The position numbers and the translations under genes were made by a program. 35,856 nt of DNA from Clostridiales bacterium (GTDB lineage Bacteria > Bacillota > Clostridia > Lachnospirales > Lachnospiraceae), in contig JAJQCB010000085.1 in the NCBI GenBank assembly GCA_021203005.1, forward strand, positions 1 to 35,856, written 5' to 3'. Each line of letters begins with the position of its first letter. The stretch's first letter is position 1. The notes beneath the pieces were generated by a model. That model was given only the letters and a program-made list of their open reading frames with translations. It was not told the origin of the DNA and ran no database searches. Below are positions 8,369-29,703 of the stretch, piece by piece.

Positions 8369-8384
8369 GGTGAGGAGGTAAGCG

Positions 8385-8774
8385 ATGTATTGGAATGAGT
8401 TAAATGTGGAAAATGCGCCCGAAAGAGGCCAGATGCTTCTCTATACCCGCAGGTCAGTGCTGTTTCAGGAATACGCAGATAAGGCTGAGATTGGAAAGAA
8501 TCTGGCGGATCAGGAGTTATTGGAAGTTCATTTGTTTGACCGGGAGAAGGAATACCGCGCGATTGCGACGAGAAGCCCGCGTTTCCCGGGTGGCATCATA
8601 GAGACCGTCGCGGATTTTCCTGAAAATGAGGAAGATGCCATTTACAGAGAGTCGGTGCTGTTGGAGAAAGGAGAAGGCGTGATCACGGTGCTGAACCACA
8701 TCGTGTATGATAAAAAAGGTATGGCGTCTATGGATAATTACCGGATGAAAATGGGAGGGAGCTGCGATGAGTAG
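8385..8774 (+). CDS. Csx19-like (TIGR03984-like) small protein of a type III-D operon
   Basis: 129 aa; position between the Csm3-like and TIGR03986-like genes, as in III-D loci; assignment mainly positional. Confidence 0.55.
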   Translation: MYWNELNVENAPERGQMLLYTRRSVLFQEYADKAEIGKNLADQELLEVHLFDREKEYRAIATRSPRFPGGIIETVADFPENEEDAIYRESVLLEKGEGVITVLNHIVYDKKGMASMDNYRMKMGGSCDE

Positions 8775-11007: not shown

Positions 11008-11101
11008 CGATAACCGAAAATCTGTGAAGATATCTATGATTCCGGTGATGATTGGTTCCGGGATAGTATGCTGCCAATCAGGTGACAGAATGGAGATTAG
11101 C

Positions 11102-12040
11102 ATGATATTGAGCCAGCTGTTGGAAATACCTTATGTAAAACTGCAGTTTCAGTTGGAAATACTGGAAGACGCCGTATTGCCGCAGACAAAGACCTCCGCT
11201 CTGCGGGGCGGTATGGGAGAAATGCTGCTGCGGCAGAATTGTGTCAGGGACAGGAAGTGCGGTCAGTGTCCGTTCCGGAAGAGTTGTATTGTCTGGGACA
11301 CGTTTTATTCCAGGATGGAGCAGAAACCGGGGTATGTTACCGGAAAAGAGAGCGTGGGGTATCTGATTGAATGCCGGGACTATTCCACATTTTTTACGGC
11401 CGGCAGCCGCCTGGATTTTTATCTGACCCTGTTTGGAGACAGTATTGTGTTTTTTCAGGTCTATCTGCAGGCTTTCACTTACCTGGGAATGGCGGGGGTC
11501 GGAAAGAATCATGCCCGGTTCCGGATTGCGGAGGTGAAAAACATGGAGGGACGCCGTCTGGTGCATGATAATGTCGTCGATATGGAATGCTATCAGATCT
11601 GTTCGCTTCGTGAGCATGCGGAGAAGAGAAAAGAATATCTGCGGCAGAGACAGGGGGAATATACCATGTTGTTTCTGTCTCCTCTCAGCATGAAGTTCCG
11701 GGGGGAATATCTGAACCGATTTTCGGGGGAGGCAGTCGTAAAAGGCGCAATGCGCAGGGTGGAGATGTTGAACTATTATATCGGAAATGAAATAAAACTG
11801 GCGGAATGCCCGGAATTCCCTGAGATTGCGAAACAGAAAGTGCGGCGGGAGGAAGTACAGCGGTATTCCGGCACACAGGATGCGCGGATACGTCTCCCGG
11901 GGATAAAAGGGAAAATATTGTTCAAATCCATGCCGGAGGAGTGCCTTGAGTATCTTCTGGCCGGGGAACTTACGCATATCGGCAAGAATACCAGCTTTGG
12001 GTTCGGACAGTATATTGTGAAAAAGGAGATGGCTGAATGA
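11102..12040 (+). CDS. cas6: Cas6 crRNA-processing endoribonuclease
   Basis: ALRGGMGEMLLRQNC...CGQCPFRKSCIVWDTFY and C-terminal G-rich motif ELTHIGKNTSFGFGQYIV; RBS ggag before ATG 11102 (alternative ATG 11090). Confidence 0.88.
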   Translation: MILSQLLEIPYVKLQFQLEILEDAVLPQTKTSALRGGMGEMLLRQNCVRDRKCGQCPFRKSCIVWDTFYSRMEQKPGYVTGKESVGYLIECRDYSTFFTAGSRLDFYLTLFGDSIVFFQVYLQAFTYLGMAGVGKNHARFRIAEVKNMEGRRLVHDNVVDMECYQICSLREHAEKRKEYLRQRQGEYTMLFLSPLSMKFRGEYLNRFSGEAVVKGAMRRVEMLNYYIGNEIKLAECPEFPEIAKQKVRREEVQRYSGTQDARIRLPGIKGKILFKSMPEECLEYLLAGELTHIGKNTSFGFGQYIVKKEMAE

Positions 12041-12170
12041 GAGTTGACCGGGCATAAAAATCTCTTTCCTTTCCGGGTAAATGGAGATATAATAATAGAC
12101 GGGCGGGAGACAAAGACATGCAAAAATGAGACCGTCAGCCCCTGGTTTCTGCGGGTTACCAGAGTGTACT

Positions 12171-12539
12171 TTAGAAATGAGATAAGCCAGTTGAGGGCAT
12201 TGACACTTTCAAAACCCCTTAATATTTTATTCAGTAGAAATGAGAGAAGCCCGTTCAGGGCATTGACACCAACCAAATTCGCCAATATGATACCGAGCTC
12301 CTTTTTTGTAGAAATGAGAGAAGCCCGTTGAGGGCATTGACACCTCTTTGTGTCATATATTTCCTCCTGTTTACTAAGGTAGAAATGAGAGAAACCCGCT
12401 GAGGGCATTGACACCTCAAGGAAATTACTTCCTTGGTTACTGTTGTTTATCGTAGAAATGAGAGAAGCCCGTTCAGGGCATTGACACAACACAGATGCCT
12501 ATGATCACAACAATAACAATTGCGTAGAAATGAGAGAAG
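12171..12539 (+). CRISPR. Short CRISPR array: five 36-bp repeats plus one truncated 16-bp repeat, five spacers
   Basis: Consensus GTAGAAATGAGAGAAGCCCGTTGAGGGCATTGACAC at 12171-12206 (degenerate), 12234-12269, 12308-12343, 12379-12414, 12452-12487 and truncated 12524-12539; spacers 27, 38, 35, 37, 36 nt; 3' end ATTGACAC resembles a type III 8-nt handle. Confidence 0.97.
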
Positions 12540-12545
12540 AATCTT

Positions 12546-13340
12546 ATGAAAATTTTAAAATTAATCGTGCATGGCGGTGAATTTCACGCAGACGATGTCA
12601 TGTGTGCGGCCATTGCAAGAGTAGTAAATCCGGACGTTCAGATAGAGCGTGTATTTCAGGCGCCGGTATGCTGTGAGGAGGGAACTGTTGTTGCAGACAT
12701 AGGCGGCGGCAGATATGACCATCATCAGCAGGACGCAGAAAAAAGAGAAAACGGAGACAAGTACGCCGCCTGCGGTTTGCTGTTGCGGGACTTCTGGCAG
12801 CAGATTTTTCCGGATGAAGCATCCTATCGCAGGTTTGATGATGAGGTGATCCGACCCATTGAGCTGGCGGATAACGGGGTGGTTCTCAATCCGTTTTCCT
12901 TAGCCGTGTCTTCCTTTGTCCCGAACTGGGACTCGGAGGAAACGATGGATCAGGGGTTTGAAAAGGCGGTTGTGTTTGTGACGGAATTTCTTGAGCGCCA
13001 GATTGAAATCGCGAAATCCGAGCTTCGCGCGCGATGTCTGGTGGAAAAAGCTCTGGCACAGAGCGACGGTAATATCGTGATCCTTCCGCAATTTTGCCCA
13101 TGGCAGAATACGCTTGTCCCGTCATCCGCACGTTTTGTTATCTATCCGTCGAATCGCGGCGGATACAATCTGCAGACAGTCCCGGAAAAAGTCAACGGTT
13201 TTATACCAAAAGAGAGTCTTCCGGAAGAATGGCTGACAGAGCTGCCGGAGGGGTGTACTTTTGTACACCAGGCGCGGTTTCTGGCAGCTTTTGATACCGG
13301 GGAACATGCGGTTTTCGCTGCGCGAAGCATCATGGGGTAA
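12546..13340 (+). CDS. MYG1/UPF0160-family DHH-type metal-dependent phosphoesterase/exonuclease
   Basis: VHGGEFHADDVMCAAIARV...VVADIGGGRYDHHQQD...CGLLLRDFW...DNGV: MYG1 signature including DHH motif. Confidence 0.85.
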   Translation: MKILKLIVHGGEFHADDVMCAAIARVVNPDVQIERVFQAPVCCEEGTVVADIGGGRYDHHQQDAEKRENGDKYAACGLLLRDFWQQIFPDEASYRRFDDEVIRPIELADNGVVLNPFSLAVSSFVPNWDSEETMDQGFEKAVVFVTEFLERQIEIAKSELRARCLVEKALAQSDGNIVILPQFCPWQNTLVPSSARFVIYPSNRGGYNLQTVPEKVNGFIPKESLPEEWLTELPEGCTFVHQARFLAAFDTGEHAVFAARSIMG

Positions 13341-13367
13341 ATGTCGAAAGAACGGAGAGGGACGGCG

Positions 13368-15335
13368 ATGAAACGGAGTATAGTGATCGCACAGGTTGGC
13401 AAATTAAATTACAGGGAAGCCCATTATAAAAGCAGCGGCACAGACATCATATATGATGCAAAGTATTCCTGCGCAGCAGTCATGAGAGAGGTTTTACGTA
13501 AAACAAAGACGGATGATATGCAGCTTATACTGGTAGGAACAGAAGATTCTGTCCTCGGTAATGTTTACCTGGATTTTTCAGAGGAAATTTCTGATCCGTT
13601 AATTGAAGATAAATTGTATGGAGAAAAGAATCCCTATACCGGAAAAATCGAAATGCATATGATACAAAACATTGCAGACCTGGATGTTTTGTGCGCTTTT
13701 GAGGCTGTAATGTCAAAAAAGTTCGCTGCTCAGTTTGCGTATGCAAATATGCATGTGAAACTGGCTATCATAGAATACGGGAAAACGCAGGAAGAGCTTC
13801 AGGAAAATTTTTCCATCATCAGAAAAACAGTAGAGGAAGCAATTTATTCCGGCCGGGAGAGGAGCGGCACGGATTTCGATATACAAAAAGAGGAAATTGA
13901 CGTTTATTTTGACATATCAAACGGGTTTCGTTCTTTCCCGATTTATATTTATACACTGATCAATTATCTTTCCCAGATCCGGGATTTTAATGTCCGTTTC
14001 CATATGTATTACGGAATGTTTGAGGCAAAACAGACAGACATGGGACCGAATGGAGAGATGGTTGAAGTTACGCCGCTGGTAGACCTCTGGATCATTGACG
14101 ACATGATGAACCTGATTCGCGGCATCAGTGAATTTCGAAGCTGCGGCAGTGTCGTGCAGATCCGGGAGCTGCTGAAACAGAATCCTGAATGGGATGTAAA
14201 GATTGGAGATAACACAGAGGAAACGTTGTCATACGCGTTTAACCTGTTTGACTACGGGACGAATGCGAATAATCTTGCCGCAATTAAGCATGCCATTGAC
14301 CTTTTGATCGGAATGGAGGAACAGCTGAAAGGAAAAGAGCCTGTCAATGTTGCGGAATACCTGTTGCTGGAAGATATTTCCGGAGATTTCAGGGATCGGT
14401 TTGATACTGCTCAGAGTAACTATCCGTATGGGCTCCTGATGATCCGCCTGGCGGAATGGTATCACATGCAGGGCCGGGAGGGAAATGCTGCAATCGCCGC
14501 GCAGGAAGCGATCATTACCTATATGTTGGAGCGGTACCCCGACACAGTAAATGCGTATTTGAAAATGAATCCGCCTAAAGACTTTCCGAAAGAGGGGATT
14601 GTGGATTTTACCAAAGCTGAAAATTTATTTCATTATAATTATCGGAACCCGGTTAAGAGCTTTCTGGATAATCTAAACCGGGATGCTGGCCAAAATGGTC
14701 AGGATGAAAAAATGAATGAGTTTCTGAGAGCCTATTCTTCCGTGAAAAATGATATTCGGAATGTCATGGCGCATATCCTTTTATCCGACCAGAATGGAGA
14801 AGACGGGAATTTCAACGTCAACGGGTACAGGGAAAGTATTGAGAAATTGATTTGTTTCGTAAGAACCGAAATTGAGAGCCGTTCGGAGGAAGAGCGGATA
14901 TTTGGTGAAAAGCTGAACACCTATATGAGCGGAAAGGTGTGCAGACAGAGGGAAAATGCGGAAAAAGAGCAGCTGCTTAGTTGTATGCTGGATAACCTGT
15001 CCGAGGGAAAAGAATACCATATTCCATCAGGCAATACCGTTGTTCCGGAGGAATTTATACGTGCTTTGGAAATGCTGGCGAAACAGCTGAATAGTATGAA
15101 GAATGCACAGGATTTCGATGGTTTCTATGAGCGGCGGAAGAGAGATCTCAGATTATTGTTTTGTATTCTGGACGAATGGATTTGCCGTAGGCATAATAAG
15201 CCCTCCGAGAATTTATACAAAGAATGTTTTAAAACGAAAAATCATAAATCGGGTTATATTCGTCTGGTTAATTTTATGAAGAGCAATAAGAAAGCAGTCC
15301 TGGACATTTTGGAATATTCGCAGACTGTGCTGTAA
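13368..15335 (+). CDS. csx1: CARF-HEPN protein, Csx1-like (TIGR02221/Csx2-type) ribonuclease
   Basis: VYFDISNGFRSFPIYIYTLINYLSQIRDFNVRFHMYYGMFEAK (CARF D-x-[ST]-[HN]-GFRS-P and YYG motifs); C-terminal SVKNDIRNVMAHIL contains RxxxxH (HEPN). Confidence 0.85.
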   Translation: MKRSIVIAQVGKLNYREAHYKSSGTDIIYDAKYSCAAVMREVLRKTKTDDMQLILVGTEDSVLGNVYLDFSEEISDPLIEDKLYGEKNPYTGKIEMHMIQNIADLDVLCAFEAVMSKKFAAQFAYANMHVKLAIIEYGKTQEELQENFSIIRKTVEEAIYSGRERSGTDFDIQKEEIDVYFDISNGFRSFPIYIYTLINYLSQIRDFNVRFHMYYGMFEAKQTDMGPNGEMVEVTPLVDLWIIDDMMNLIRGISEFRSCGSVVQIRELLKQNPEWDVKIGDNTEETLSYAFNLFDYGTNANNLAAIKHAIDLLIGMEEQLKGKEPVNVAEYLLLEDISGDFRDRFDTAQSNYPYGLLMIRLAEWYHMQGREGNAAIAAQEAIITYMLERYPDTVNAYLKMNPPKDFPKEGIVDFTKAENLFHYNYRNPVKSFLDNLNRDAGQNGQDEKMNEFLRAYSSVKNDIRNVMAHILLSDQNGEDGNFNVNGYRESIEKLICFVRTEIESRSEEERIFGEKLNTYMSGKVCRQRENAEKEQLLSCMLDNLSEGKEYHIPSGNTVVPEEFIRALEMLAKQLNSMKNAQDFDGFYERRKRDLRLLFCILDEWICRRHNKPSENLYKECFKTKNHKSGYIRLVNFMKSNKKAVLDILEYSQTVL

Positions 15336-15385
15336 GTATAATCAGTAATTTGAGATGGGATGGTGTTGCCGGGAGGGCAGGCAGG

Positions 15386-18174
15386 ATGAGCAATATAAGA
15401 TTTGAAATCGGAGAACTGACAGAGATCGAAGAGATAAAAGAGTTTCATACTGAAGCGGGCGCATCCATGCGTTACCGATTGACAATAAAACTTCTGACAG
15501 TTTCTCCGGAATCCGACTTTAGCGTTGAGGATATTTGCGATTTCAGGCGGAAAGTATATCTTTATGCGCCTTTTTTTGATGCATGCGGGCTTCCGTATAT
15601 TGCAGACGAAGCGGAAGCGGTAGTAAAACCTGATCTTCCGTTGTACGATACAGAGGAAAGATGGGTAGAGTTGAAAGTACGGTCTGTCATACGGGGAAGA
15701 ATTCTGTCAGAAACAGATATAGAAAATGTAAAAGATGAAAAACTATATATCGGAAATGTGAGTTTTGATTACTGGAAGAATTTAAAGAGCGATGTAGAGG
15801 TAATAGCGAAATGGAACAGATCTATGCCGAAATCCTGTTATTCTGACCTAGATCGGTGCGTTCAATGTGCGCTTGCCACAGGCAATCATCTTGCATTTGC
15901 AAAATATTTTACGGAAAAGGCAAAGCCGAGAAAAGAAATTGCCGCTGTTGTCTTAGAAAAATATCTTGATAGATATAACAAAAAAGATGAATGGAACCAG
16001 TGGAAAATTCTTCCGACCGCTATTTGGCGGAGTTTAGATTTCGAATATACGGAAAATAATCTGAAATGGAATGCCTACGATTATGCTCAAATGAGTACGT
16101 GGATTAAGAGGGTCGGTTCGGTTCCTGACAAGGATATCCTGGTTCAGCTGGCGCTCAGTATGGGGCTGGATGGGGACGAGACAGATATGCTTCTTATGGC
16201 ATCTGGGTATGATCGACTCTATCTGCTGGATGCGGCGGATCTGTTTGCGAAAATCGCGCTTGATAAATACGGGAATGATACGGTTACATCTGATTATGAC
16301 AAAAGAAAAGAGGTCTTCGAACAGCAGAAAAAGTTCATGGCTTCACAGACAGATTTGGAGTTAAAATACATTTTAAATGAATTAGAACCGGAACAGCGGT
16401 CGGATTTTGAAAACTGCTTTTTATCTGCCTTAGAAGAAAAGGAATGTGCCGGTGAGTTTAAAGCGGAAAGAGATATCATTATAGAAATTTTAAATGATTT
16501 AAAAGATATGCGGAAAACAGGTAATTTGGACGCCGGGAAATGGTACGTTACGGAAAAGAAAGATAAAAAAGGCCATATAAAATATATTGACATAACGGAA
16601 GTTAAAAAGGATGATACGCATAGGTATTGGGGGATACAAAAACAATCAGACAGTTCTGAAATAATTGTATGGAGATATGAGTACGTACCAATAGCAGGAA
16701 ATAAACAGGAGTCTTCACAGACAGATTCGGATTTATCCGAATCATCGTGTTTGAATTTTATCCGGGATTATGGCGACAGAAAAATCAAATACATTTTAAA
16801 TGAATTAGAACCGGAACAGCGGTCGGATTTTGAAAACTGCTTTTTATCTGCCTTAGAAGAAAAGGAATGTGCCGGTGAGTTTAGGATGAAAAAAACGCCG
16901 TTAAAGAAATTTTAATAGATATGAAAAAGGACGTTGATAAATGGGATATTACGGAAAATAAAAAGGATGGCAATGTAAAATATATTAACATGAACGAAAA
17001 GAATACGCATACGTATTGGAGGATACAAAAGCAATCAGACAGTTCTGAAATAGTTGTATGGAGATATGAGGACGTACCAATAGCGAGATATAAAACGAAG
17101 CTAAGCCGGAATATAGAAGGTGATATACAGAAGTTTATAAATGAGTTTGAAAAATCTTACGGAAAAAAGAATATCCAGGAGACAGAATATCTTACAAATC
17201 TGATGGGCAAGTTGTACAGGGATAAAGGAGTTACGGTAACAGATAATGGCAGTATATCCATATCGCTTCCGGGTGAAAGCCATGTAGAACCGAAAAAATT
17301 AATTGAGCAGAGGCGTTATGGCTACTTAAAAAAGATGGATAATTTCCTGAAAGACCGGGAGGCATATGAAAAATATTTACCGGATGACCCGAACTCCTGT
17401 GAATGGAAGTGGGAGTGGTCAGGCAACGTGAGCGATTTGGTATCGCATATTGATAATTGCGGCCGCTTGCTGAGTAAGGATGGAAGAAAATCGGGATACA
17501 GAACGGGGAATGGACTGAATCAGGCTACCATAATCTGGAACAGGAGGAGCAAACTATTTGACCCCTATGATTTGCCAAATGCCAGTGCGCGAAGAAGCAC
17601 ATTGAGAAATATGCTGTTTGGCAGGGGAGGTAAGAATAAGTTTGATGTGATAACCCAGATAGATAAGGCGGATTTTTTTAAGTTTCTCGTGATCACGGGG
17701 CATGAGGATGACATCGGAATTTATATGAAAAAACTTGGTTTTTGGAAGGAAGACTTGTATTCCTTGTATTCGCCAAATTTTGAGTTACACATTGATCCGG
17801 AAGATTTTCAAATAGATCCGGAAGGTCTTAAAATGGAATCCTGCGATTATATTTGTGACAGGAAAGATTTGCTGTTGCTGTATGCCCTGGTATACAGGGA
17901 TGAACTGCTTGATTCTTACTTTTTTTCCGGCAAAACCCGTGAGGAAAGAAATAAATTAAAGCAAAAGTTTCCGTTCCTTGAAGTCGTAATGGAGATTTCA
18001 AATACGATAGTGCGCAGTTATTACCTGCAGCGAAAAAATCCGGCTGCTTCATTCCATGGACCATGGATCCTTCGCGGGGCAGGTATTGACGGCATCGTTT
18101 ATTCAGACGACGTCATGTTTTTTGAAGAAAAAGGGCGGAGAGTCAGGAGTGCTGAAAATGAGCGGGAACGATAG
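15386..18174 (+). CDS. Large uncharacterised protein with internal tandem duplication, interrupted by a frameshift near 16884-16900
   Basis: ORFs 15350-16915 and 16921-18174: the C-terminal ORF continues repeat copy 2 in another frame. Pieces resemble a regulatory/HTH-like pattern (SMGLDGDETDMLLMASGYDRLYLLDAADLF). Confidence 0.6.
16364..16883 (+). repeat. Direct repeat inside coding sequence: 97-bp identical copies at 16364-16460 and 16787-16883 (423-bp offset), followed by diverged homologous segments
   Basis: aaatacattttaaatgaattagaaccggaacagcggtcggattttgaaaactgctttttatctgccttagaagaaaaggaatgtgccggtgagttta occurs twice, identical. Confidence 0.95.
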
Positions 18175-20297
18175 AATGGGCAGGAATCTGATCGCGGAAA
18201 CCGGGAATGCGGTAATATACAGCAATGGTGAAGATGGCGATACTATTTTTGCAATCAAAAAATATAAAGATGCCGGTCGCGCCATGCAGTTTATGGAGCA
18301 TGAAAAGAAAATCTCCCATGAAATATATGCCAGGACGCAAAAAAGAGAGGCGGTCATTCCGATTCTTGACATCACAGAGGACGGATGCGGGCGCATGATG
18401 TTGAAGAAACACGGACATTTTTTAAATGACCTGATCCCCGAACTGGAAGACAGATATGATAGCAGCAGCACCAGAGGACTTTTGATCCGGCTGAATATCA
18501 TAAAGGAGATACTGACATCTCTGGATACGATCCATTTTTGCGGAATGGATGAGGGAAGCGGTTATGTGCATCTCGATATTCACCCCGGGAATATATTTTT
18601 TGAAAACACGGATATAGAGCATGGACGGATCGGGACAGCGAAATTCCTTGATTTTCTGAGTGCCAGGCCGGTGAGCGGCAACCGTGTGCTGCAGGATGGT
18701 GCGGAATTGATTATTGCAACGCCCGTATATGCGGCGCAGGAATATCTTGAGGGGACTATGGATGCTGTGTGCAGGGCGGCGGACCTGTATTCTGTTGGGA
18801 AAATTTTTTGCAGAATGCTTTTTCGCGGCCCGGTGTCATCGTGGGAAGAGGATCGCCTGAAGTATTCAAAGGCTGCGATTGAGAAAGCGCTGGGAAGCAG
18901 CCTGAGCGCGGACATCATCGCTCCTTTTATCCGGTGTGCCCTGGACAGTAATCCGAGGTACCGCTATCAGACAGCCGGTGAGATGAGACAGGCAGTGGAA
19001 GACATGAGTGCTGTCCTGCGTGACTGTGAGAAGAGAAAGTTTGACAGCGTATTTTCCTATCTGTTCGATCATGGATTCGTATGGAAAGAATCCTGGCTGG
19101 AGGAGTTGGAATGCGGGGAGGGGAAACTCCTGGAATCAGCAAACCGTCTGAAAGAAGCGTTGCTGAGAGACCATATAAGCAGCTCCAAATGTTACTATAT
19201 CTACAGAGGCCTCCGCGGGTTATTAGAGAAAAACAAAAAATGAAATAAGAGAATACGGGAAGATAAAAAATCTGCTGCTGGTATCAGGAGTATCCTGCTG
19301 CAATTATACAGGGCGCAGCAGCGAAGCCATAGAATTGTATGAAGAACTCCGGGCAGATGAAGTGGATATGGAGTTGCAGGATTATCTGGTGCTGCTCAAC
19401 CGGACAGCGGTATCCTATGCAGATTCCCTGGATTATGAGGGAGCCTGCCGTCTGATTGAAAAAAGTATTTCTTCGCTGGAAGCCATAAAAAAGATCAATG
19501 CTGAGATCGCGGGAAATCTTAATTTAAAAGCATCTGCAACCTTTGTGAAAGATCTGGCCCGGGCCTATTCGGCGAAAGGCTGTTACATGACACTCTGCGG
19601 TCGGAATGAGGATGACAGTAAAACGCCGCTATATTACTTTGGCAAAGCACTGGAGGAATTTGGGGAAGATCGCGGGAACCGGAGGATTACGGCATCGCAT
19701 ATCCTGCAGTATGCGATTGAGAAAAAAGACAGAGCTATCTTTGAAAAATATGCTTTGGAAGAGAATTACTTTGGCCTGGAGGATAGCCGGGGAGCAGACA
19801 GATCCCCTGCCCATATTCTGGAAAATCTTCTGTTGCAGGGAGATCCTTACGTGCTCCATGTATTTCTTAAGGGAATTTACAGTTTTTACCTGAATAAGGC
19901 TGATGAGTCTTTTTCAGATATCCTGAAATCCGCTTTGTACCATGAGTTTTTGTGCTTTGAAAAAAATGACCCGATGGAGCTGGTGTTCCGCTGGGCGGGA
20001 ATGATTTTATATGAGAAGAATGGACATAAGGCGGATGCTGATGTGCTTCGCGCGTACAATCTTGCGATGTCATATGTCCCGGAGGCGGAGATCCATCCGG
20101 AGCAGCCAATCAATATTCTGACTCTGGCCACATATCAGTCCAGATACCAGTACAATGAGATAGCTGGTGGGGATAATGAAAAGCTGTATGGGGAGTTTGT
20201 GGAGCATTGCCATCGCTTCGGGGATGAAAGAATTGCAGAGATATACAAAGGAGGACCGGAAAGATTAAATGAAGTCCTGACTTTTGAATATGTATGA
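18158..20297 (+). CDS. Ser/Thr protein kinase with C-terminal TPR-like region, apparently frameshifted at ~19235-19240
   Basis: FAIKKYKDAG...YVHLDIHPGNIFF...KFLDFLSARP (kinase motifs) ends at 19243; a second frame without a good start reads EIREYGKIKNLLLVSGVSCCNYTGRSSEAIELYEEL... to 20297. Removing one A from A6 joins them. Confidence 0.75.
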
Positions 20298-21545: not shown

Positions 21546-21571
21546 TTAATATATAGGAATCGATTACATGG

Positions 21572-21600
21572 AGCAGTGTTTTTTAACACTGCTTTTTTTT
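21572..21600 (+). terminator. Rho-independent terminator ending the CRISPR-associated operon
   Basis: agcagtgtt-tttt-aacactgct followed by a T tract. Confidence 0.92.
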
Positions 21601-21610
21601 GTGTCCTTTT

Positions 21611-21640
21611 TTCAGGCATCCCTCTGTATTAAAGTATAAT
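21611..21640 (+). promoter_or_regulatory. Candidate promoter for the second operon
   Basis: TATAAT at 21635-21640 with weak -35 TTCAGG at 21611-21616, downstream of the terminator. Confidence 0.35.
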
Positions 21641-21687: not shown

Positions 21688-22398
21688 ATGGATATGAAGT
21701 ACAGAAAATATATAGGTTACATAATACCCGGGTTTACGACATATGAGGTGAAGACGGATTATTTCATTATAGAGTCCGGCATTTTAAATAAGAAGTACTC
21801 CTATGTCCCGATACACCAGTTGGCGGATCAGGTTGAACTGAAGCAGACTTTCCTCGGGCGATGGATGGGTGATTTCGGCAGCATTCACTTTACAACTCAT
21901 AATGGAGAAGAGGTGACTTTTTCCCAGATCAAAAAAGCCGGGTATCTGATGCAGGTTCTCCCCGGATTGATCAAAAGTGAAAACATGAGATACGTGGATG
22001 CACTGAACAAGGCCCGCTATGATATGTACAAGGGAAAACCGGCCAGAAAAAATAAACGATATGCAAAATGTTTTGCAGAAAAAAACCGGTTTTATTTTCC
22101 GGGGTTTGAGTCCTACTTTCTGGATCAGGATCAGCTGATCGTCCGGCAGGGGATTTTAAGGAAACAGGAAATGAATATTTACCTGGAAAATTTTGACAGC
22201 ATGTTTCACACAGAACGCTCTTTCGCAGAGCGGGTTCTGGGGTTCGGAACGATATCTTTGAAATGCGGCTCGGAGAAAGTAATCCTGCGTCATATTTCAT
22301 CCGCAGAAGCCATTGCCTGGATTTTAACAAAAACCATACCTCAGGCCAAAATCATTTATTACGCCTATCAGGCTTTTCAGAAGAAAGCAGGGGTGTAG
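21688..22398 (+). CDS. Protein with two bacterial PH-like (bPH_2/DUF304) domains
   Basis: YFIIESGILNKKYSYVPIHQLADQVELKQTFLGRWMGDFGSIHFTT and QLIVRQGILRKQEMNIYLENFDSMFHTERSFAERVLGFGTISLKC. Confidence 0.7.
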   Translation: MDMKYRKYIGYIIPGFTTYEVKTDYFIIESGILNKKYSYVPIHQLADQVELKQTFLGRWMGDFGSIHFTTHNGEEVTFSQIKKAGYLMQVLPGLIKSENMRYVDALNKARYDMYKGKPARKNKRYAKCFAEKNRFYFPGFESYFLDQDQLIVRQGILRKQEMNIYLENFDSMFHTERSFAERVLGFGTISLKCGSEKVILRHISSAEAIAWILTKTIPQAKIIYYAYQAFQKKAGV

Positions 22399-22444
22399 AG
22401 ATATGGAGAGTCATGTTTTTTAAGCCGAAAGGAGATGCAGAAAG

Positions 22445-23062
22445 ATGAATGTACAGGTAAAAAGCAGCAATGGGATCACTTTGGTTCCGGTGGAGACGCG
22501 CCTGATGGCAGAACGCAATATTTTTATTGAGGGCGAGATCAATTCGGAAAGCGCCTGTGAGTTCGTAAAAAAGGTTATGTACTTAAACAGCGAGGATGCG
22601 GAAGAACCGATTCATGTCCTGATCAATTCAAACGGCGGCGAGATCAATGCCGGGATGCTGATGTACGATGTGATCCAGGCCAGTAAAGCGCCGATCCGGA
22701 TGTATTGTATTGGGCACGCCTACAGCATGGCGGCAGTGCTCTTTGCCAGCGGCAATTACGGGCGCTACATGCTGCCGCACGGAGAGCTGATGCTCCATGA
22801 GCCGCTGCTCGGAAACCGGGTGGGAGGGAACTCTTCCTCCATCAAATCGATTTCCGACAGCTTGCAGGAGTCAAAGCGGGTCATGAACCGGATCCTGGCA
22901 AAGCACACGGGGAAAACAGAAAAAGCGGTGGAAAAGGCGACAAATTATGACCATTACTTCAGCCCGGAGGAAAGTATCGCGTTCGGGCTGTGTGATGAGA
23001 TTGTAGGGTTTGACAGAATGATGGAGGATGAAAACGGTTATGGACAAAATGATACTTGGTGA
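22445..23062 (+). CDS. ClpP-like serine protease
   Basis: PIHVLINSNGGEINAGMLMYDVIQASKAPIRMYCIGHAYSMAAVLFASG...PHGELMLHEPL...YDHYFSPEESIAFGLCDEIVG; Ser-His-Asp triad positions retained. Confidence 0.93.
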   Translation: MNVQVKSSNGITLVPVETRLMAERNIFIEGEINSESACEFVKKVMYLNSEDAEEPIHVLINSNGGEINAGMLMYDVIQASKAPIRMYCIGHAYSMAAVLFASGNYGRYMLPHGELMLHEPLLGNRVGGNSSSIKSISDSLQESKRVMNRILAKHTGKTEKAVEKATNYDHYFSPEESIAFGLCDEIVGFDRMMEDENGYGQNDTW

Positions 23063-24299
23063 GAAAGCAGCTTTTAGTACGGATTGTAATGAAACGGGAT
23101 TGAATAATAATGTTTTTGTATGCGGGGGAAGCGGATGCGGGAAGACGTTGTCAATTACCGAACCCCGTCTTCTGGAGACAAAACAGTCCAGCCTGATCGT
23201 GACTGTGACGAAGAGAAGGATCGTACATAAGTATAAGCCGGTGTTTGAGCAGCGGGGTTATAAAGTGGAGGATCTGAATTATGTCAATCCCCTGGAGAGC
23301 AGCGTCGCCTACGACCCGCTGCAATATGTGGCAAGCTATTCCGATATCCGGTTCCTGAGTGAATCTATTGTTATGGCGAACCCGCGCAAGGAGAAGTCCA
23401 CGGGAGCGGATCCCTATTGGGACGAGGCGGCCATTTCACTCTGTTGTGCGGAAATTGCCTACGTTCTCATGACGGATGAAAACGCTACGCTTGCTGATGT
23501 CCTTGCGTTTCATGACAGGATTTCTTTCTGGGACGAGAACGGGCAGATCGCCACTTCTGTTGACAAAAAATTTGATCGTCTGGAGGACAGGGATCCGACC
23601 TGCTATGCGGTATCCTGCTGGAAGTCTTTCCACCAGCTCCCGATCAGGACCGCCGGCTGCGTATTTGGGGCCTTAAATACGACGATCGATACCATCTTCA
23701 GCCCGGAACTGCGCGAAATGATAGCCACGAAGAGACAAGTGGATTTTGAAAAGTTAGCCACGGAAAAAACCGTCCTGTTTGTATCAACGTCTGCTGTGAA
23801 TCCGGCACTCAACTGTTTCATCAATATGTTCTATGCGCAGGCGTTCAAAAGCCTGTTTGAATACGCGGAAAGCCGGCCGGCCGGCTGGCTGCCGATCCCG
23901 GTACATGTGCTTTGCGACGATTTTGCTACAGGCAGCAGGATACTGAATTTCCCGGAATACATCTCTATTTTCCGCGAAAAGCGGATTTCGGTCACGCTGC
24001 TTGTCCAGTCTGAGTCCCAGCTGGAATCGATGTACGGGCCGAACGATGCGACGACGATCATAAACAACTGTGACACCTACCTCTATATGGGCGGGATGGA
24101 TTTAAAGACCGGGAAGTCGATCAGTGAAAGGCTGAACGTGCCTCTGGATGAGGTCCTTTACATGCCGATCGGCCGGGAATACATATTCCGCAGAGGGCAG
24201 AAGCCGGTTGCTACCAGGCGCTATGATATTATGCGGAATGAACTTTATCTGAAAATCACGGAAGAATACGAGAGTAAGATCCGCAAATCGGAACGGTAA
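23040..24299 (+). CDS. VirD4/TraG-like P-loop ATPase (coupling-protein-like), orphan
   Basis: NVFVCGGSGCGKTLSITEPRL (Walker A), VHVLCDDFATGSRI (Walker B), SVTLLVQSESQLESMYGPNDATTIINNCDTYLYMGG typical of VirD4/TraG; start overlaps clpP. Confidence 0.85.
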   Translation: MDKMILGEKAAFSTDCNETGLNNNVFVCGGSGCGKTLSITEPRLLETKQSSLIVTVTKRRIVHKYKPVFEQRGYKVEDLNYVNPLESSVAYDPLQYVASYSDIRFLSESIVMANPRKEKSTGADPYWDEAAISLCCAEIAYVLMTDENATLADVLAFHDRISFWDENGQIATSVDKKFDRLEDRDPTCYAVSCWKSFHQLPIRTAGCVFGALNTTIDTIFSPELREMIATKRQVDFEKLATEKTVLFVSTSAVNPALNCFINMFYAQAFKSLFEYAESRPAGWLPIPVHVLCDDFATGSRILNFPEYISIFREKRISVTLLVQSESQLESMYGPNDATTIINNCDTYLYMGGMDLKTGKSISERLNVPLDEVLYMPIGREYIFRRGQKPVATRRYDIMRNELYLKITEEYESKIRKSER

Positions 24300-24352
24300 A
24301 AAATATTTTTTGTGTCATCGCAGATCTTATCGAAATATGCCATCCTATATGC

Positions 24353-24538
24353 ATGAAGGGAAAGAAGGTCATGAATGAGAAAAGTATGGATGCTTTGAAT
24401 GATTGTTTCCGTAACAAACGTGCCGGTGAATCTGAGGTAATTGCGAAAGCATGCCAAAGAGCAGCGCGTATGAGGGAATGGAAAGAAAAGGAATCCAAAC
24501 AGGAATGCCGGATATATATTCCGGGAAAGGAAGGATGA
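24353..24538 (+). CDS. Small uncharacterised protein, ATGA-coupled to the downstream LRR gene
   Basis: MKGKKVMNEKSMDALNDCFRNKRAGESEVIAKACQRAARMREWKEK...; stop overlaps ATG 24535. Confidence 0.45.
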   Translation: MKGKKVMNEKSMDALNDCFRNKRAGESEVIAKACQRAARMREWKEKESKQECRIYIPGKEG

Positions 24539-25608
24539 AGAAAATGCTGAAATGGAAAGGGAAATACCTGGAAGGAAGATGCGGGGAGGATGCAGCTTAT
24601 AGATTTAATCTGGGTGTGCTTACGATCTCCGGCAGGGGACGGCTGTATGACTATGAATCGAATTACGTCGATGCCGACAGGAAGTTTGATGTATATGAGA
24701 TCATTGCAGATGCCCAGGAAGAGGTGAACGCCAGACAACGGCGGGATCAATGCCGGGATGCTGATGGATGTGATCCGGGCCAGAAAAGCGCCGATCCGGA
24801 TGTTTTGCATCACGGCGCAGTCCCCTGGGCTGATTACAGAAACGATATCCGGCGGGTCTTGATCGAAAAAGGGATAACCAGCATCGGGAACAACATGTTT
24901 GCAGATTGCGTCAACCTTGAATCCGTGGCAATCCCGGAGGGCGTCACGGTGATCGGATACAATGCTTTCCGAAACTGCCGGAACCTGGTAAGAGTATCGT
25001 TTCCGGGCAGCCTTTTCCGTATCCGGTTTCAGGCATTTGAGGGATGCCATAGCCTGACCCGGGCGCTTATTTTCCCAAAGGTTGGGCTGGGCGAAGATGT
25101 TTTTAAAGACTGCCCCAATCTGAAGTTGTATGTCCGGGAGGGCTCTCCTGCCATGAAATATGCTGTCAGGAACAACATAAATTATGTAAATATGGGTATC
25201 GGCACCAGGCAGGGGAAATCCTCAGCCGGCTGTGATGCGGCGAAACAGAGGAAATGCTCAGCTGACAGCGGTGCGGTCTCAGATCAGGGATTCGAGGAAG
25301 AGTTTTTAAAAGTAGTGAAACAGTATCAGCAGGAGTTGTCTGACGCCAGGCAGTTTGTCGGGATTCTGAAAGACTGTTTCCCGGAGGCGGAAAACCAGAA
25401 GCACGTATTTTTGATGGGGGAATTGTCCCGGCTCGGAATCGTGCAGGCAATCCGTGATGCAGAGGAACTTAATGCCATGCTGCTGCAGCGGTATACGAAA
25501 CGCCTCGTTTCTGATTTTGCTGCAGACGAAAGCTGGGCTGCATGGGCGGTATCGCTCTGGTGTAAATCCTACGGGGTAAATGTTTTGGATAAGCCCTGTT
25601 CGATATAA
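24535..25608 (+). CDS. BspA-type LRR_5 protein with a clpP-derived out-of-frame insertion
   Basis: FNLGVLTISGRGRLYDYE...VPWADYRNDIRRVLIEKGITSIGNNMFADCVNLESVAIPEGVTVIGYNAFRNCRNLVRVSFPGSL. Confidence 0.85.
   Translation: MKKMLKWKGKYLEGRCGEDAAYRFNLGVLTISGRGRLYDYESNYVDADRKFDVYEIIADAQEEVNARQRRDQCRDADGCDPGQKSADPDVLHHGAVPWADYRNDIRRVLIEKGITSIGNNMFADCVNLESVAIPEGVTVIGYNAFRNCRNLVRVSFPGSLFRIRFQAFEGCHSLTRALIFPKVGLGEDVFKDCPNLKLYVREGSPAMKYAVRNNINYVNMGIGTRQGKSSAGCDAAKQRKCSADSGAVSDQGFEEEFLKVVKQYQQELSDARQFVGILKDCFPEAENQKHVFLMGELSRLGIVQAIRDAEELNAMLLQRYTKRLVSDFAADESWAAWAVSLWCKSYGVNVLDKPCSI
24737..24808 (+). repeat. clpP-like fossil segment inside the LRR gene, read in a different frame
   Basis: aacggcgggatcaatgccgggatgctgatggatgtgatccgggccagaaaagcgccgatccggatgttttgc closely matches clpP 22631-22708 with two 3-nt gaps. 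Confidence 0.9.
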
Positions 25609-25618
25609 GGTGTTGATT

Positions 25619-26986
25619 ATGAGTAAAAAATGTAAGCTGAAACTTACAGAATGGGAGGACAAACAGATGGAAGGTTCATTGTTGAAGACAGGGACAACGG
25701 TTGTTGCGGAGAATGGTGCCCGTTACACAGTCCGCAGGTTCCTTGGTTCAGGCGGCCAGGGAGAGGTTTACGATGTGGAAAACGGCAGCGGGCAGCCGTT
25801 TGCCCTGAAGTACTATTTTAAACATTCCGCAACAGACACACAAAAGAGTATTCTGAAAAACCTGATCGCGAAGGGGAGCCCGGATCCCTCTTTCCTCTGG
25901 CCGCTGACTCTGGTATGTTCAGGCCGGGAAAATGACGGCGGATTCGGGTACATCATGGCGCTGCGTCCCAAACAGTACAAGAGCATCGCGGATTTAATGA
26001 AGCGCAGGGTGGACCCGGGCTTTTATGCCATCTGCCGTGCCGCGTTCAATCTCACAAAAGGCTACAGGAAACTCCATGAAAGCGGATACTCATACCGGGA
26101 TATCTCCTGGGGGAACGTTTTTTTCACAACGGAGGGGGACATCCTGATCTGTGACAATGACAATATTTCGGTGGATGGAAAGGATGACAGCGGAGTGCTC
26201 GGGACTCCGGGGTTCATGGCGCCGGAACTGGTGGTGGGGAAGGCGAAACCCACCCCCTCCCGGAACACTGATCTGCATTCGCTTGCCGTATTGCTCTTCT
26301 GCATTTTTTTTATCAGCCATCCATTAAACGGCCAGTTGGAGGCGGAGATCAAATGCATGGACATTTATGCCATGGAGCGTCTCTACGGCGCAGATCCGGT
26401 GTTCATATTTGACCCGGAGGATAAGCGGAACCGGCCGGTGAAAGGCGTGCATGATAATGCGCTGATCTACTGGCAGATATATCCGCAGGAGCTGAAAGAT
26501 CTGTTTACACAGGCCTTTACAGTGGGATTGAAGTCGCCAAACAGGCGCGTCACGGAAAAGCAATGGCTGGACGCGATCGCGAACCTGATGAGCGGGATTA
26601 TGATGTGCCCGAAATGTGGCGCCGAGGTTTTTTACGACAGGCAAAAAGAGCTACATGGAGAAGCGCATTCCTGCTGGAACTGTTCGAATACGCTGGCTGT
26701 CCCTCATAAGCTTGTGGCGGGGAAACATAAAGTATTGCTGACTGCTGAAACCAAACTGAAATCACATTCCATTCATGGCGATTTTGATATGGATAAAACA
26801 GTGGCTGCCGTAGTCAGAAATCCGAAAAACCCTCTGTTGTGGGGCATCCGGAATGGTGAGAACGGTGTAAACTGGACATATGTAAAGAAAGATGGGAGCC
26901 AGATCCCTGTCCCGACAGGCCGCGCTGCCGGCATTGTACCCGGCGTGAAGATAAATTTTGGGGACTGTATTGGTGAAATTATCTGA
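25619..26986 (+). CDS. TerY-P triad Ser/Thr kinase with Zn-ribbon and C-terminal FHA-like region
   Basis: FLGSGGQGEVYDV...FALKYY...YSYRDISWGNVFF...ILICDNDNIS...GTPGFMAPELV; CPKCG...CWNC zinc ribbon. Confidence 0.9.
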   Translation: MSKKCKLKLTEWEDKQMEGSLLKTGTTVVAENGARYTVRRFLGSGGQGEVYDVENGSGQPFALKYYFKHSATDTQKSILKNLIAKGSPDPSFLWPLTLVCSGRENDGGFGYIMALRPKQYKSIADLMKRRVDPGFYAICRAAFNLTKGYRKLHESGYSYRDISWGNVFFTTEGDILICDNDNISVDGKDDSGVLGTPGFMAPELVVGKAKPTPSRNTDLHSLAVLLFCIFFISHPLNGQLEAEIKCMDIYAMERLYGADPVFIFDPEDKRNRPVKGVHDNALIYWQIYPQELKDLFTQAFTVGLKSPNRRVTEKQWLDAIANLMSGIMMCPKCGAEVFYDRQKELHGEAHSCWNCSNTLAVPHKLVAGKHKVLLTAETKLKSHSIHGDFDMDKTVAAVVRNPKNPLLWGIRNGENGVNWTYVKKDGSQIPVPTGRAAGIVPGVKINFGDCIGEII

Positions 26987-27037
26987 AACAGAAGAATTAT
27001 GACAAGTAAATTATAAACCTGAAAATCAAAGGAGGAA

Positions 27038-27781
27038 ATGATTATGGCACTGAAATTGAAACGACCCGGCGGAGAATTAGCGACGAGACCACTCCATTTC
27101 TTTTGGATTGTAGACTGTTCCGGCAGTATGTTCGGCGAGAAAATAGGCGCGGTAAACCATGCGATCCAATCCGTGATTCCGGATATGCGGGAGGCAGCGG
27201 AGAGCAACCCCAATGCGCAGCTTTTGGTCCGCACCCTGAGATTTGCGACCGGTGCCTCCTGGATTACGCCCGAACCCGTCCCGATCGAAGATTTTGCCTG
27301 GGACGACCTTGACGCGTCAGGACGGCAGCTGACCAATATGGGCCAGGCCATTGAGATGGTGGCTTCTCAATTAAGAATCCCACCGATGCCTGAGAGGGCG
27401 CTCCCGCCCGTATTGGTCTTGCTCTCGGACGGTCAGCCTACGGATATGGATAATTACAAAAAGAGCCTCAACGATCTGCTTCACCTTCCCTGGGGGAAGA
27501 AGGCTGTCAAAATAGCCATATCCATCGGCAGGGACGCCGACGATACTGTTTTGCAAGATTTTACCGGGAATCCGGAGCTGGTACTGGAAGCTAATAATGC
27601 GTCCATGCTCACCGAAGCCATAAGGTGGGCGTCAACGGCTGTTTCCGCTGTACCCGCTCCTCCATCCAGCATACTGTCTGAGGAGGATAGCAATGGCTCA
27701 CACAGCCCGGCCATGCGGGTACTCAATATCAACAACATTCCGACACCCGACGACGTTATTGATCAGGAGGATGTCTGGTGA
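27038..27781 (+). CDS. terY: vWA (TerY-like) protein
   Basis: HFFWIVDCSGSMFGEKIGAVNHAIQSVIPDMREAAESNPNAQLLVRTLRFATGASW; MIDAS DxSGS; LSDGQPTD. Confidence 0.92.
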   Translation: MIMALKLKRPGGELATRPLHFFWIVDCSGSMFGEKIGAVNHAIQSVIPDMREAAESNPNAQLLVRTLRFATGASWITPEPVPIEDFAWDDLDASGRQLTNMGQAIEMVASQLRIPPMPERALPPVLVLLSDGQPTDMDNYKKSLNDLLHLPWGKKAVKIAISIGRDADDTVLQDFTGNPELVLEANNASMLTEAIRWASTAVSAVPAPPSSILSEEDSNGSHSPAMRVLNINNIPTPDDVIDQEDVW

Positions 27782-27799
27782 AAGTGAGGTGGATGGTAA

Positions 27800-28693
27800 A
27801 TGATGTCACGGATGATTTATGGCGAAAGCGTGAGGGGAGCCTCACATATCAGATCTGGTAAACCCTGTGAAGACTCTTTCAAATTCATGGAGATTTCGGG
27901 TCAAGTTTCTCTGCTCGCAGTGGCTGACGGGCATGGCAGCGATGCCTGCCCGTACAGCCGAGACGGGGCGGAAATAGCTGTTGAAGCGTTCTGTTCTGTC
28001 ATGGAACGTCTCGTTGAAAAAAATTTTACGGAAAACTCGGATAAGAATTTCTTCCTGTCTTATCTGAACCGGGATGGGAGTCTGGGTGTGGCCCGCCTTG
28101 TGGAACAGGAATGGAAACAGCGTGTCTGGGAAAGTTACCTTACTAATCATGGTGGGCAGGGGGAATCGGACACCACGGACAGGAACTCTGTTTACCGCTT
28201 ATATGGTTCCACCCTGCTCGGACTTTTGCTTATGGAGGACTATCTCTTCGCATTCCAGATCGGCGACGGTGACATTCTGCCTGTCGATGCGGACCGGGTG
28301 CAGCCGCTGACAGAGGCTGACAAGATCCTTGGTACGGAGACGCACTCGATTTCCTCTGAAAATGCCTGGAAGAACGCGGTCACATCGGTACGCCGTCAGG
28401 AGGACCATCCCCGGCTTTACCTGCTTTCAACGGACGGTTTTTGCAACAGCTACCCCACAACAGAGAGTTTTAAGGAAACCTGCCGGGATTATTATAACGT
28501 CTTACGGGAGTACGGTTTCCAGGCAGTAACAGATAATCTGAAAGACTGGTTGACGGAGACGAGCGATCTCGGATCCGGGGATGATATTACTCTGCTGCTG
28601 GCATATACAGGTGACGAAGAATGCGCAGAAACTGCCGACAGCAGGGCAGAAGAGAGAAGAGATGATATATCCGATGGAGGAGAGCAGGAATGA
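27800..28693 (+). CDS. PP2C-type serine/threonine phosphatase
   Basis: GASHIRSGKPCEDSF...LLAVADGHGSDACPYSRDGAEIAVEAF...LLSTDGFCNS...GSGDDITLLLAY. Confidence 0.92.
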   Translation: MMSRMIYGESVRGASHIRSGKPCEDSFKFMEISGQVSLLAVADGHGSDACPYSRDGAEIAVEAFCSVMERLVEKNFTENSDKNFFLSYLNRDGSLGVARLVEQEWKQRVWESYLTNHGGQGESDTTDRNSVYRLYGSTLLGLLLMEDYLFAFQIGDGDILPVDADRVQPLTEADKILGTETHSISSENAWKNAVTSVRRQEDHPRLYLLSTDGFCNSYPTTESFKETCRDYYNVLREYGFQAVTDNLKDWLTETSDLGSGDDITLLLAYTGDEECAETADSRAEERRDDISDGGEQE

Positions 28694-29703
28694 TCACGGA
28701 CAGGTATTATTACAGCCGGCTTTCACGGCAGGAGAGACAAATCTATAAAGCCCTGTACCAGGGTGTGGTAAATTCAGATGCCGGTATTCCGCTGTATAAA
28801 ACAACTTCGGAGACAATCCCGGATCCGGAGGTGATCCGGAGGGTGTTCCGGGCTGTGGCAAGAGATAATCCGCATTTGTTTTATGTCAACCAGACACTGC
28901 TGGAAACCAGGCAGATCGGGAATAAAATGACGTTGGTCCCGCAGTATTTTTACTCGAAAGATGAGATTGCAGCCTGCAATGCCAAAATAGAAGCGGAAGT
29001 CAATCGGATGATAACGGATCTCGGACTGAACCGTCTGCCGCAGCCGGAGGCCGTACATAAAGTCCATGATTATTTTTGCCGGAACATCGCTTATGACACA
29101 GAAGCGGCGGAGAAAGGGATTACCCCCGGCACCATCCATGCATACGCCGCTCCCGGCGTGTTTTTAGAAAAGCGGGCAGTCTGCGAAGGCATTTCCAAAG
29201 CCCTGAAGCTTCTCCTGAATGCGGCGGACATAAAATGCATCCTGGTGGAAGGGAACAGCCTGCCCGACAATGCCCCGCATGCATGGAACATCATCAAAGT
29301 AAATAATGTTCCCTGCCATATGGACCTGACCTGGGATATGACAGGAGGTATGGAGGGGATCACCAGTTATGATTACTACTGCCTGTCGGAAGCGGATATA
29401 TCCAGAGACCACACGGATTTTTCCGGGGTTCCCGTATGCAATTCCGATAGTGAAAACTATTTTCTGAAAAGAGGGCTGGAATTTTATACGCCGGACCAGT
29501 TGAGAACGTATATCAGGCACGGTCTGAAAAAGAAACAAACAGACTTTTATTTCCGATACAGGGGAACGGGGGGAATTGCGCCGGTTATGCAGGAAGAGAT
29601 CGAATTCCTGCAGTGGCAGTTCCCCATGCATGGGATGGAGGGCAGGATCGTCAGCACCATGAGGGAGACGCAGGGTACGGGGCGGATCGTACTTCTTTCC
29701 TGA
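28690..29703 (+). CDS. Transglutaminase-like (papain-fold) protein
   Basis: VHDYFCRNIAYDTEAA...EKRAVCEGISKALKLLLNAADIKCILVEG...HAWNIIKVNNVPCHMDLTWD: Cys-His-Asp arrangement. Confidence 0.87.
   Translation: MITDRYYYSRLSRQERQIYKALYQGVVNSDAGIPLYKTTSETIPDPEVIRRVFRAVARDNPHLFYVNQTLLETRQIGNKMTLVPQYFYSKDEIAACNAKIEAEVNRMITDLGLNRLPQPEAVHKVHDYFCRNIAYDTEAAEKGITPGTIHAYAAPGVFLEKRAVCEGISKALKLLLNAADIKCILVEGNSLPDNAPHAWNIIKVNNVPCHMDLTWDMTGGMEGITSYDYYCLSEADISRDHTDFSGVPVCNSDSENYFLKRGLEFYTPDQLRTYIRHGLKKKQTDFYFRYRGTGGIAPVMQEEIEFLQWQFPMHGMEGRIVSTMRETQGTGRIVLLS

Follow-up and report, generated by a model that had tools for sequence, protein, structure and literature searches.

Type IV coupling proteins are motors, some of which handle protein cargo, and in CalpL and other signal-activated immune proteases proteolysis is the effector of immune signalling. 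To our knowledge, every described ATP-dependent chambered protease uses an AAA+ unfoldase. In the DUF4297-HerA defence system an enzyme is stacked on a HerA-type hexamer, and assembly can switch both on (PMC11291478). Here we analyse a stretch of 35,856 nucleotides (hereafter the window) from a Clostridiales bacterium of the Lachnospiraceae (GenBank assembly GCA_021203005.1, contig JAJQCB010000085.1), in which a clpP gene overlaps the gene of a soluble VirD4-like ATPase. The window is one entire contig of a 3.83-Mb genome in 312 contigs, and the two genes lie in a run of eight co-directional open reading frames (ORFs) on the forward strand (21688-29703), each with a domain named by a Pfam scan. 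These domains bear out the eight gene identities given in an earlier note on this DNA, which read the run as a single, larger effector machine under phospho-regulation, in which ClpP or a transglutaminase might be the executor. We find that the conserved unit is the two-gene clpP-virD4 module, not all eight genes.

Conservation of the gene pair

The first gene of the pair encodes a ClpP serine protease subunit (22445-23062; Pfam CLP_protease, 3.7e-48), and the ATG of the second, at 23040, lies within it. The second gene product (23040-24299) is a VirD4/TraG-like ATPase of the HerA/FtsK superfamily (Pfam T4SS-DNA_transf, 8.5e-30; also TraG-D_C). The earlier note had called this juxtaposition unusual and had seen no conjugation genes nearby, which is true within the window: type IV secretion system (T4SS) genes (VirB4, VirB6, relaxase) are absent among the window genes scanned. 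Downstream of the pair, the run continues with a leucine-rich repeat (LRR) protein, a TerY-P-type triad of kinase, vWA and PP2C proteins, and the transglutaminase.

The VirD4-like protein was searched against 145 related genomes, and short homologues, of ~415-450 amino acids (aa) and matching over nearly the full length, were taken from 13 places. Twelve of the 13 have a clpP gene on the same strand within 400 bp and the 13th has one at 542 bp. The surroundings of these 13 pairs are otherwise unrelated to one another, and genes of the triad, the PH protein that precedes ClpP in the window and the transglutaminase were found at none of them. From a GTDB scan with a narrower alignment, the best 80 of 171 matches were retained, so that this sample leans towards closer kin. 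The 80 loci belong to Lachnospiraceae, Oscillospiraceae and other Clostridia; the named genomes among them include Butyrivibrio sp. XPD2006 (locus L046) and CB08, as well as Lachnospiraceae bacterium P6A3 and AB2028. In a uniform tblastn count, ClpP lies on the same strand within 400 bp in 65 of the 80 loci; contig ends leave 76 loci that can be assessed out to 1.7 kb, and 71 of these have ClpP within that distance. All four short VirD4 forms from elsewhere in the phylum are also accompanied by ClpP. The long, membrane-anchored conjugative VirD4 proteins, by contrast, have a ClpP neighbour in none of 44 cases, and the homologues looked at in plasmid and phage collections are of this conjugative type. 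ClpP is upstream of VirD4 in 65 of 72 usable pairs, frequently with an overlap. Clostridia of the gut and rumen commonly carry the module, which seems not to have been annotated as a unit.

The pair is also present on a viral contig (L044), near genes resembling those of mobile elements. One locus, L057, carries the label Muribaculum; its pair, however, sits within a Lachnospiraceae-type branch, and it is therefore likely, judging by this placement, to be mis-binned.

The association with the rest of the run is not conserved. The window's vWA, PP2C, PH and transglutaminase genes are absent from all 91 pair loci, and none of 12 other loci compared because they carry the window vWA family has the clpP-virD4 pair. 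The earlier note had expected ClpP and VirD4 to be conserved neighbours of the triad, and had itself taken their absence elsewhere as the result that would count against its reading; the larger machine with ClpP as executor is likewise not conserved as such. Because pair and triad never co-occur elsewhere in either search direction, we conclude that the window holds two independent modules side by side, clpP-virD4 and LRR/TerY-P/transglutaminase.

Features and shared history of the two proteins

The catalytic triad of the window ClpP is S94/H118/D169, and a complete Ser-His-Asp triad is present in 67 of 72 pair ClpP proteins. The AlphaFold2 model of the window protein (mean predicted local distance difference test, pLDDT, 86) matches ClpP structures with TM-scores of 0.88-0.94. 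A phage head-maturation ClpP was considered and rejected, as Clp_rel_HeadMat scores 82.9 bits against 160 for the Clp protease model and the fold matches are to true ClpP. Two positions that we take to belong to the ClpX-docking pocket, F82 and I28 in E. coli numbering, are altered: the first is G, S or A in 55 of 72 pair proteins and Y or F in all 12 housekeeping ClpP proteins, and the second is mostly K, R or N in the pair proteins. The altered pocket fits a different docking partner. In the related branch formed by L051, L053, L054 and L057, the ClpP triad seems to have been lost in part.

The window VirD4-like protein has intact Walker motifs, with K35 in Walker A and D293-D294 (in DDFA) in Walker B. 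A membrane segment, defined as a 19-residue hydrophobic peak above 1.6, is found in 1 of 87 soluble and 19 of 20 conjugative VirD4 proteins; Walker A lies mostly at residue 30-60 in the soluble and at ~145 in the conjugative forms, and Walker B has DD in 100% of the former and DE in 100% of the latter. The AlphaFold2 model (pLDDT 88.6) is closest in fold to Cagbeta and TrwB, then to DUF4297-HerA, and HerA-type defence ATPases are among its structural matches (8zir, TdpAB). With the NCBIfam model of CD1115-type VirD4 the window protein scores 249.3 bits, against a cut-off of 250.

The two proteins have separate lineages that run in parallel. Pair ClpP (72 sequences) and housekeeping ClpP (12) lie on opposite sides of one branch, and a single branch also splits soluble (87) from conjugative (20) VirD4, each with a support of 100 in the Shimodaira-Hasegawa-like approximate likelihood ratio test (SH-aLRT). 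In a mirror-tree comparison, patristic distances of ClpP and VirD4 correlate with r 0.82 over 72 pairs, a value reached by none of 2000 permutations, and with r 0.90 after five long branches are dropped; the corresponding comparison with housekeeping ClpP gives 0.44 (11 genomes). All 12 genomes tested have a ClpP besides the pair copy, ~33-38% identical to the window ClpP. In L033 both clpP genes are on one contig, and the second is followed by an AAA ATPase-related gene of 441 aa, which is taken to be ClpX.

Changing neighbours of the pair

The genes adjoining the pair vary, and several kinds recur. A Macro-HTH family protein is encoded directly upstream in 14 loci, mostly from Oscillospiraceae, giving a Macro-HTH/ClpP/VirD4 triplet (L081, L086, L088-L091, L095-L097, L099-L102, L104). 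TIR proteins lie beside the pair in L031, L056 and L057; the one upstream of the pair in L057 is a TIR-RHS-PDZ protein of 1207 aa, with a homologue in L054. Three distant loci (L055, L060, L105) have a Ser/Thr kinase, which differs from the triad kinase, together with an FHA protein, and these neighbours lend some independent support to phospho-control of the ClpP-VirD4 pair. A CARF-PDDEXK nuclease is encoded 8 bp downstream of the pair in L059, with a relative in L037, and type III CRISPR genes occur within the stretch around the pair in L074, L075, L077 and L092. None of these kinds is found in 0.4 Mb of control sequence, the pair loci spanning 1.44 Mb. Against length-matched random genes, the counts are 8:0 for Macro, 4:0 for TIR and ~3:0 for CARF families; type III cas genes are near 4 of 91 pair loci and 0 of 20 control regions, which is suggestive only. 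We infer that the pair is an effector-like core with exchangeable inputs.

The Macro, TIR and KptA-like neighbours are all connected to ADP-ribose chemistry. A small metallophosphoesterase-like gene (DxHxGH motif) is near the pair in L035, L036, L049, L170 and L171.

A possible mechanism and its alternatives

We propose that the dedicated ClpP paralogue would form the usual proteolytic chamber, and that the soluble VirD4-type hexamer, an anchor-less relative of the coupling proteins, would replace ClpX or ClpC as the ATP-driven motor, docking on the chamber and feeding substrate proteins in. An adjoining, interchangeable signalling gene (Macro-HTH, TIR, kinase/FHA or CARF nuclease) would set substrates and timing; in the window, either the PH protein or the triad may supply this input. 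The likeliest role of such a machine would be to degrade proteins conditionally, in the response to stress or to phage. We give about even chances to the proposal that the hexamer binds the ClpP chamber and pushes proteins into it once the adjoining signalling module fires. The wider proposal, that the pair represents a class of ATP-dependent chambered protease not described before, with a motor of the HerA/FtsK superfamily threading proteins into ClpP and a plug-in effector role for many bacterial modules of signalling and immunity (Macro, TIR, kinase-FHA, CARF, TerY-P), is tentative, and we rate it as somewhat less probable than its opposite.

Several points weigh against these proposals. 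Five of the 76 short VirD4 proteins have no nearby ClpP (L070, L073, L075, L082, L098), and five of the 72 pair ClpP proteins lack the full triad. The conserved columns of VirD4 do not contain an IGF-like ClpP-docking tripeptide, and DD in place of DE in Walker B could slow hydrolysis. DNA pumping is the best-known activity of VirD4/HerA relatives, and the PADLOC match rate of pair neighbours is not clearly enriched over that of random genes. The physical ClpP-VirD4 complex, the unfolding of substrates, the translocation of protein rather than DNA and the immune role are inferred steps.

ClpP is gated and normally requires a protein-threading partner, which counts against the main alternative, in which the complex is retained but the VirD4 hexamer, like HerA in DUF4297-HerA or Sir2-HerA, would load on foreign DNA and its assembly would activate a toxic ClpP, without unfolding. 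This alternative draws on the HerA-type defence ATPases among the structural matches, on the TIR, CARF and type III CRISPR neighbours in some loci, and on DUF4297-HerA, in which assembly activates an effector ring stacked upon the hexamer (PMC11291478); a nuclease or DNA-processing gene is, however, not conserved with the pair, and we consider such a DNA-triggered role unlikely. The genes could also share nothing but their regulation, ClpP working with the ClpX or ClpC of the cell and VirD4 being an orphan translocase that is merely co-transcribed. Further ClpP copies do exist in the same genomes and the complex is putative, but strong co-evolution and the loss of the conserved aromatic residue of the ClpX-docking pocket make simple co-transcription improbable.

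The eight-gene machine of the earlier note could appeal to the single co-directional run with short gaps, to a VirD4-LRR gap without a detected terminator, and to the kinase and FHA genes found next to the pair at L055, L060 and L105. The absence of any joint occurrence of pair and triad in the 91 and 12 loci, and a second copy of the triad in the same genome that has the LRR and transglutaminase genes and not the pair, leave it very little probability; as one system, the eight genes were rejected on the neighbourhood counts in both directions. Least credible is a decayed conjugation remnant, with VirD4 as the relic of an integrative element that happens to stand beside ClpP. The near-threshold kinship to CD1115-type VirD4 and the viral copy near mobile-element-like genes would fit such an origin, but the two genes have been kept together and have co-evolved across a deep tree, and their products carry diagnostic motifs and intact active sites. 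A conjugation element proper was ruled out by the absence of T4SS genes and of a transmembrane segment and by the VirD4 protein's own lineage.

The remainder of the locus

The gene upstream of the run ends in an intrinsic terminator (21570-21595; stem of 11 pairs, T-tail), as the earlier note had it. The TATAAT box of that note exists as a hexamer (21635-21640), but it lacks an adequate -35 element and is not reported by a promoter scan; promoter-like sites in the region number 13, which does not exceed chance (10.7 expected from shuffles). The run opens with a PH-domain protein carrying two bPH_2 domains (21688-22398; 5.5e-17), 46 bp ahead of clpP; its homologue is absent from all 91 pair loci, and neither module has it as a conserved partner.

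The LRR_5 (BspA-type) gene (24544-25608; 5.8e-19) may start at 24451, 24535 or 24544, which leaves a gap of 151 or 244 bp after VirD4, depending on the start chosen, and the scan detected neither promoter nor terminator there. It contains 72 bases of clpP, out of frame and with a 3-bp gap (24738-24806; blastn E 2e-22, also found in a six-frame search). The piece is 90% identical to the local clpP, whereas its identity to clpP genes from elsewhere is at most ~82%; the LRR gene has thus apparently received an inserted copy of a clpP segment.

The composition of kinase, vWA and PP2C proteins known as TerY-P is published (PMC11090510, PMC7699616), as are similar gene sets (PMC7159879), and the earlier note's recognition of such a triad is confirmed. 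A Ser/Thr kinase with a C-terminal zinc ribbon, CPKC...CWNC (25667-26986; Pkinase, 8.8e-17), follows the LRR gene after ~58 bp; next come, after 51 bp, a TerY-like vWA protein with the metal ion-dependent adhesion site (MIDAS) motif DCSGS (27038-27781; VWA, 3.3e-7) and, after 18 bp, a PP2C phosphatase with ADGHGS and GDD motifs (27800-28693; PP2C_2, 1.5e-36). The last gene, overlapping by 4 bp, encodes a transglutaminase-like cysteine enzyme with C165/H197/D212 (28690-29703; Transglut_core, 1.3e-6). The motif residues of the vWA, PP2C and transglutaminase proteins are intact. PADLOC gave no match for the window PH, ClpP, VirD4, LRR, vWA, PP2C and transglutaminase proteins, and for the kinase it matched kinase models of other systems only.

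As triad partners, the LRR and transglutaminase genes proposed in the earlier note do recur, whereas ClpP and VirD4 do not. Among the 12 other triad loci, the transglutaminase is found in L125, L134, L135 and L136 and an LRR_5 gene in L125, L126 and L134. The cluster in L125 (6683-12900) is the second TerY-P/LRR/transglutaminase copy of the same genome, with a vWA protein 74% identical to that of the window. The triad locus L137 has a conjugative VirD4 ~3 kb away, and the triad relatives in L127-L129 carry further operon genes. Ter or restriction-system genes, to which such triads can be linked, were not seen in the window.

Just upstream of the run, 3275-20297 holds genes resembling those of type III CRISPR systems (Cas10-like, Cas6-like and several RAMP-like), along with MYG1-like and CARF-HEPN genes, and then a PD-T4-6-like kinase gene; in L092, homologues of MYG1 and cas10 also adjoin a ClpP-VirD4 pair. 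A frameshift or an assembly error divides the Cas10-like gene (3275-4874) into two ORFs that overlap and are read in different frames. Two adjacent genes at 15350-18174 share near-identical repeats (LKYILNELEPEQRSDFENCFLSALEEKECAGEF; QKQSDSSEI), a recent partial duplication.

Comparison with known systems

ClpP and VirD4 each belong to a known family; the machine that they would form together is putative. The open-access literature searched, with subscription-only papers and preprints mostly outside its reach, contains no description of a ClpP-VirD4 pair. With ClpXP, ClpCP and ClpAP the pair shares a genuine ClpP fold, the Ser-His-Asp triad and an adjacent ATPase gene, as clpX is often beside clpP. 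It differs in that their ATPase is an AAA+ Clp/Hsp100 protein with an IGF-type loop whereas that of the pair belongs to the VirD4/HerA-FtsK superfamily, in the altered ClpX-docking pocket, and in the existence of a separate housekeeping ClpP. If our proposal is correct, a second motor lineage has been recruited for protein degradation.

The pair VirD4 has the fold and RecA-like core motifs of type IV coupling proteins (VirD4, TrwB, Cagbeta, CD1115 family). Unlike them, it has no membrane anchor, reads DDFA in place of DEFA and has a ClpP partner; no T4SS genes were seen at the window, whereas a CD1115-type locus (L198) has them. The old question of whether VirD4-type motors pull proteins would become a simple test-tube assay. 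The second module of the window fits the TerY-P triad and differs in its LRR and transglutaminase genes, and the pair is unlinked to it elsewhere. From CalpL-type proteases the pair is set apart because it involves neither Lon nor SAVED, its ATP motor is encoded alongside and its immune role is putative.

The HerA-effector defence systems (DUF4297-HerA, Sir2-HerA/Nezha) have the same two-gene arrangement of an ATPase and an enzyme, with a hexameric HerA/FtsK-type motor and an enzyme expected to form a ring, and 8zir is a structural match. Their effector is a nuclease or NADase; that of the pair is a chambered protease, with a putative antiphage role, and proteolysis would then join the outputs of HerA-like defence complexes.

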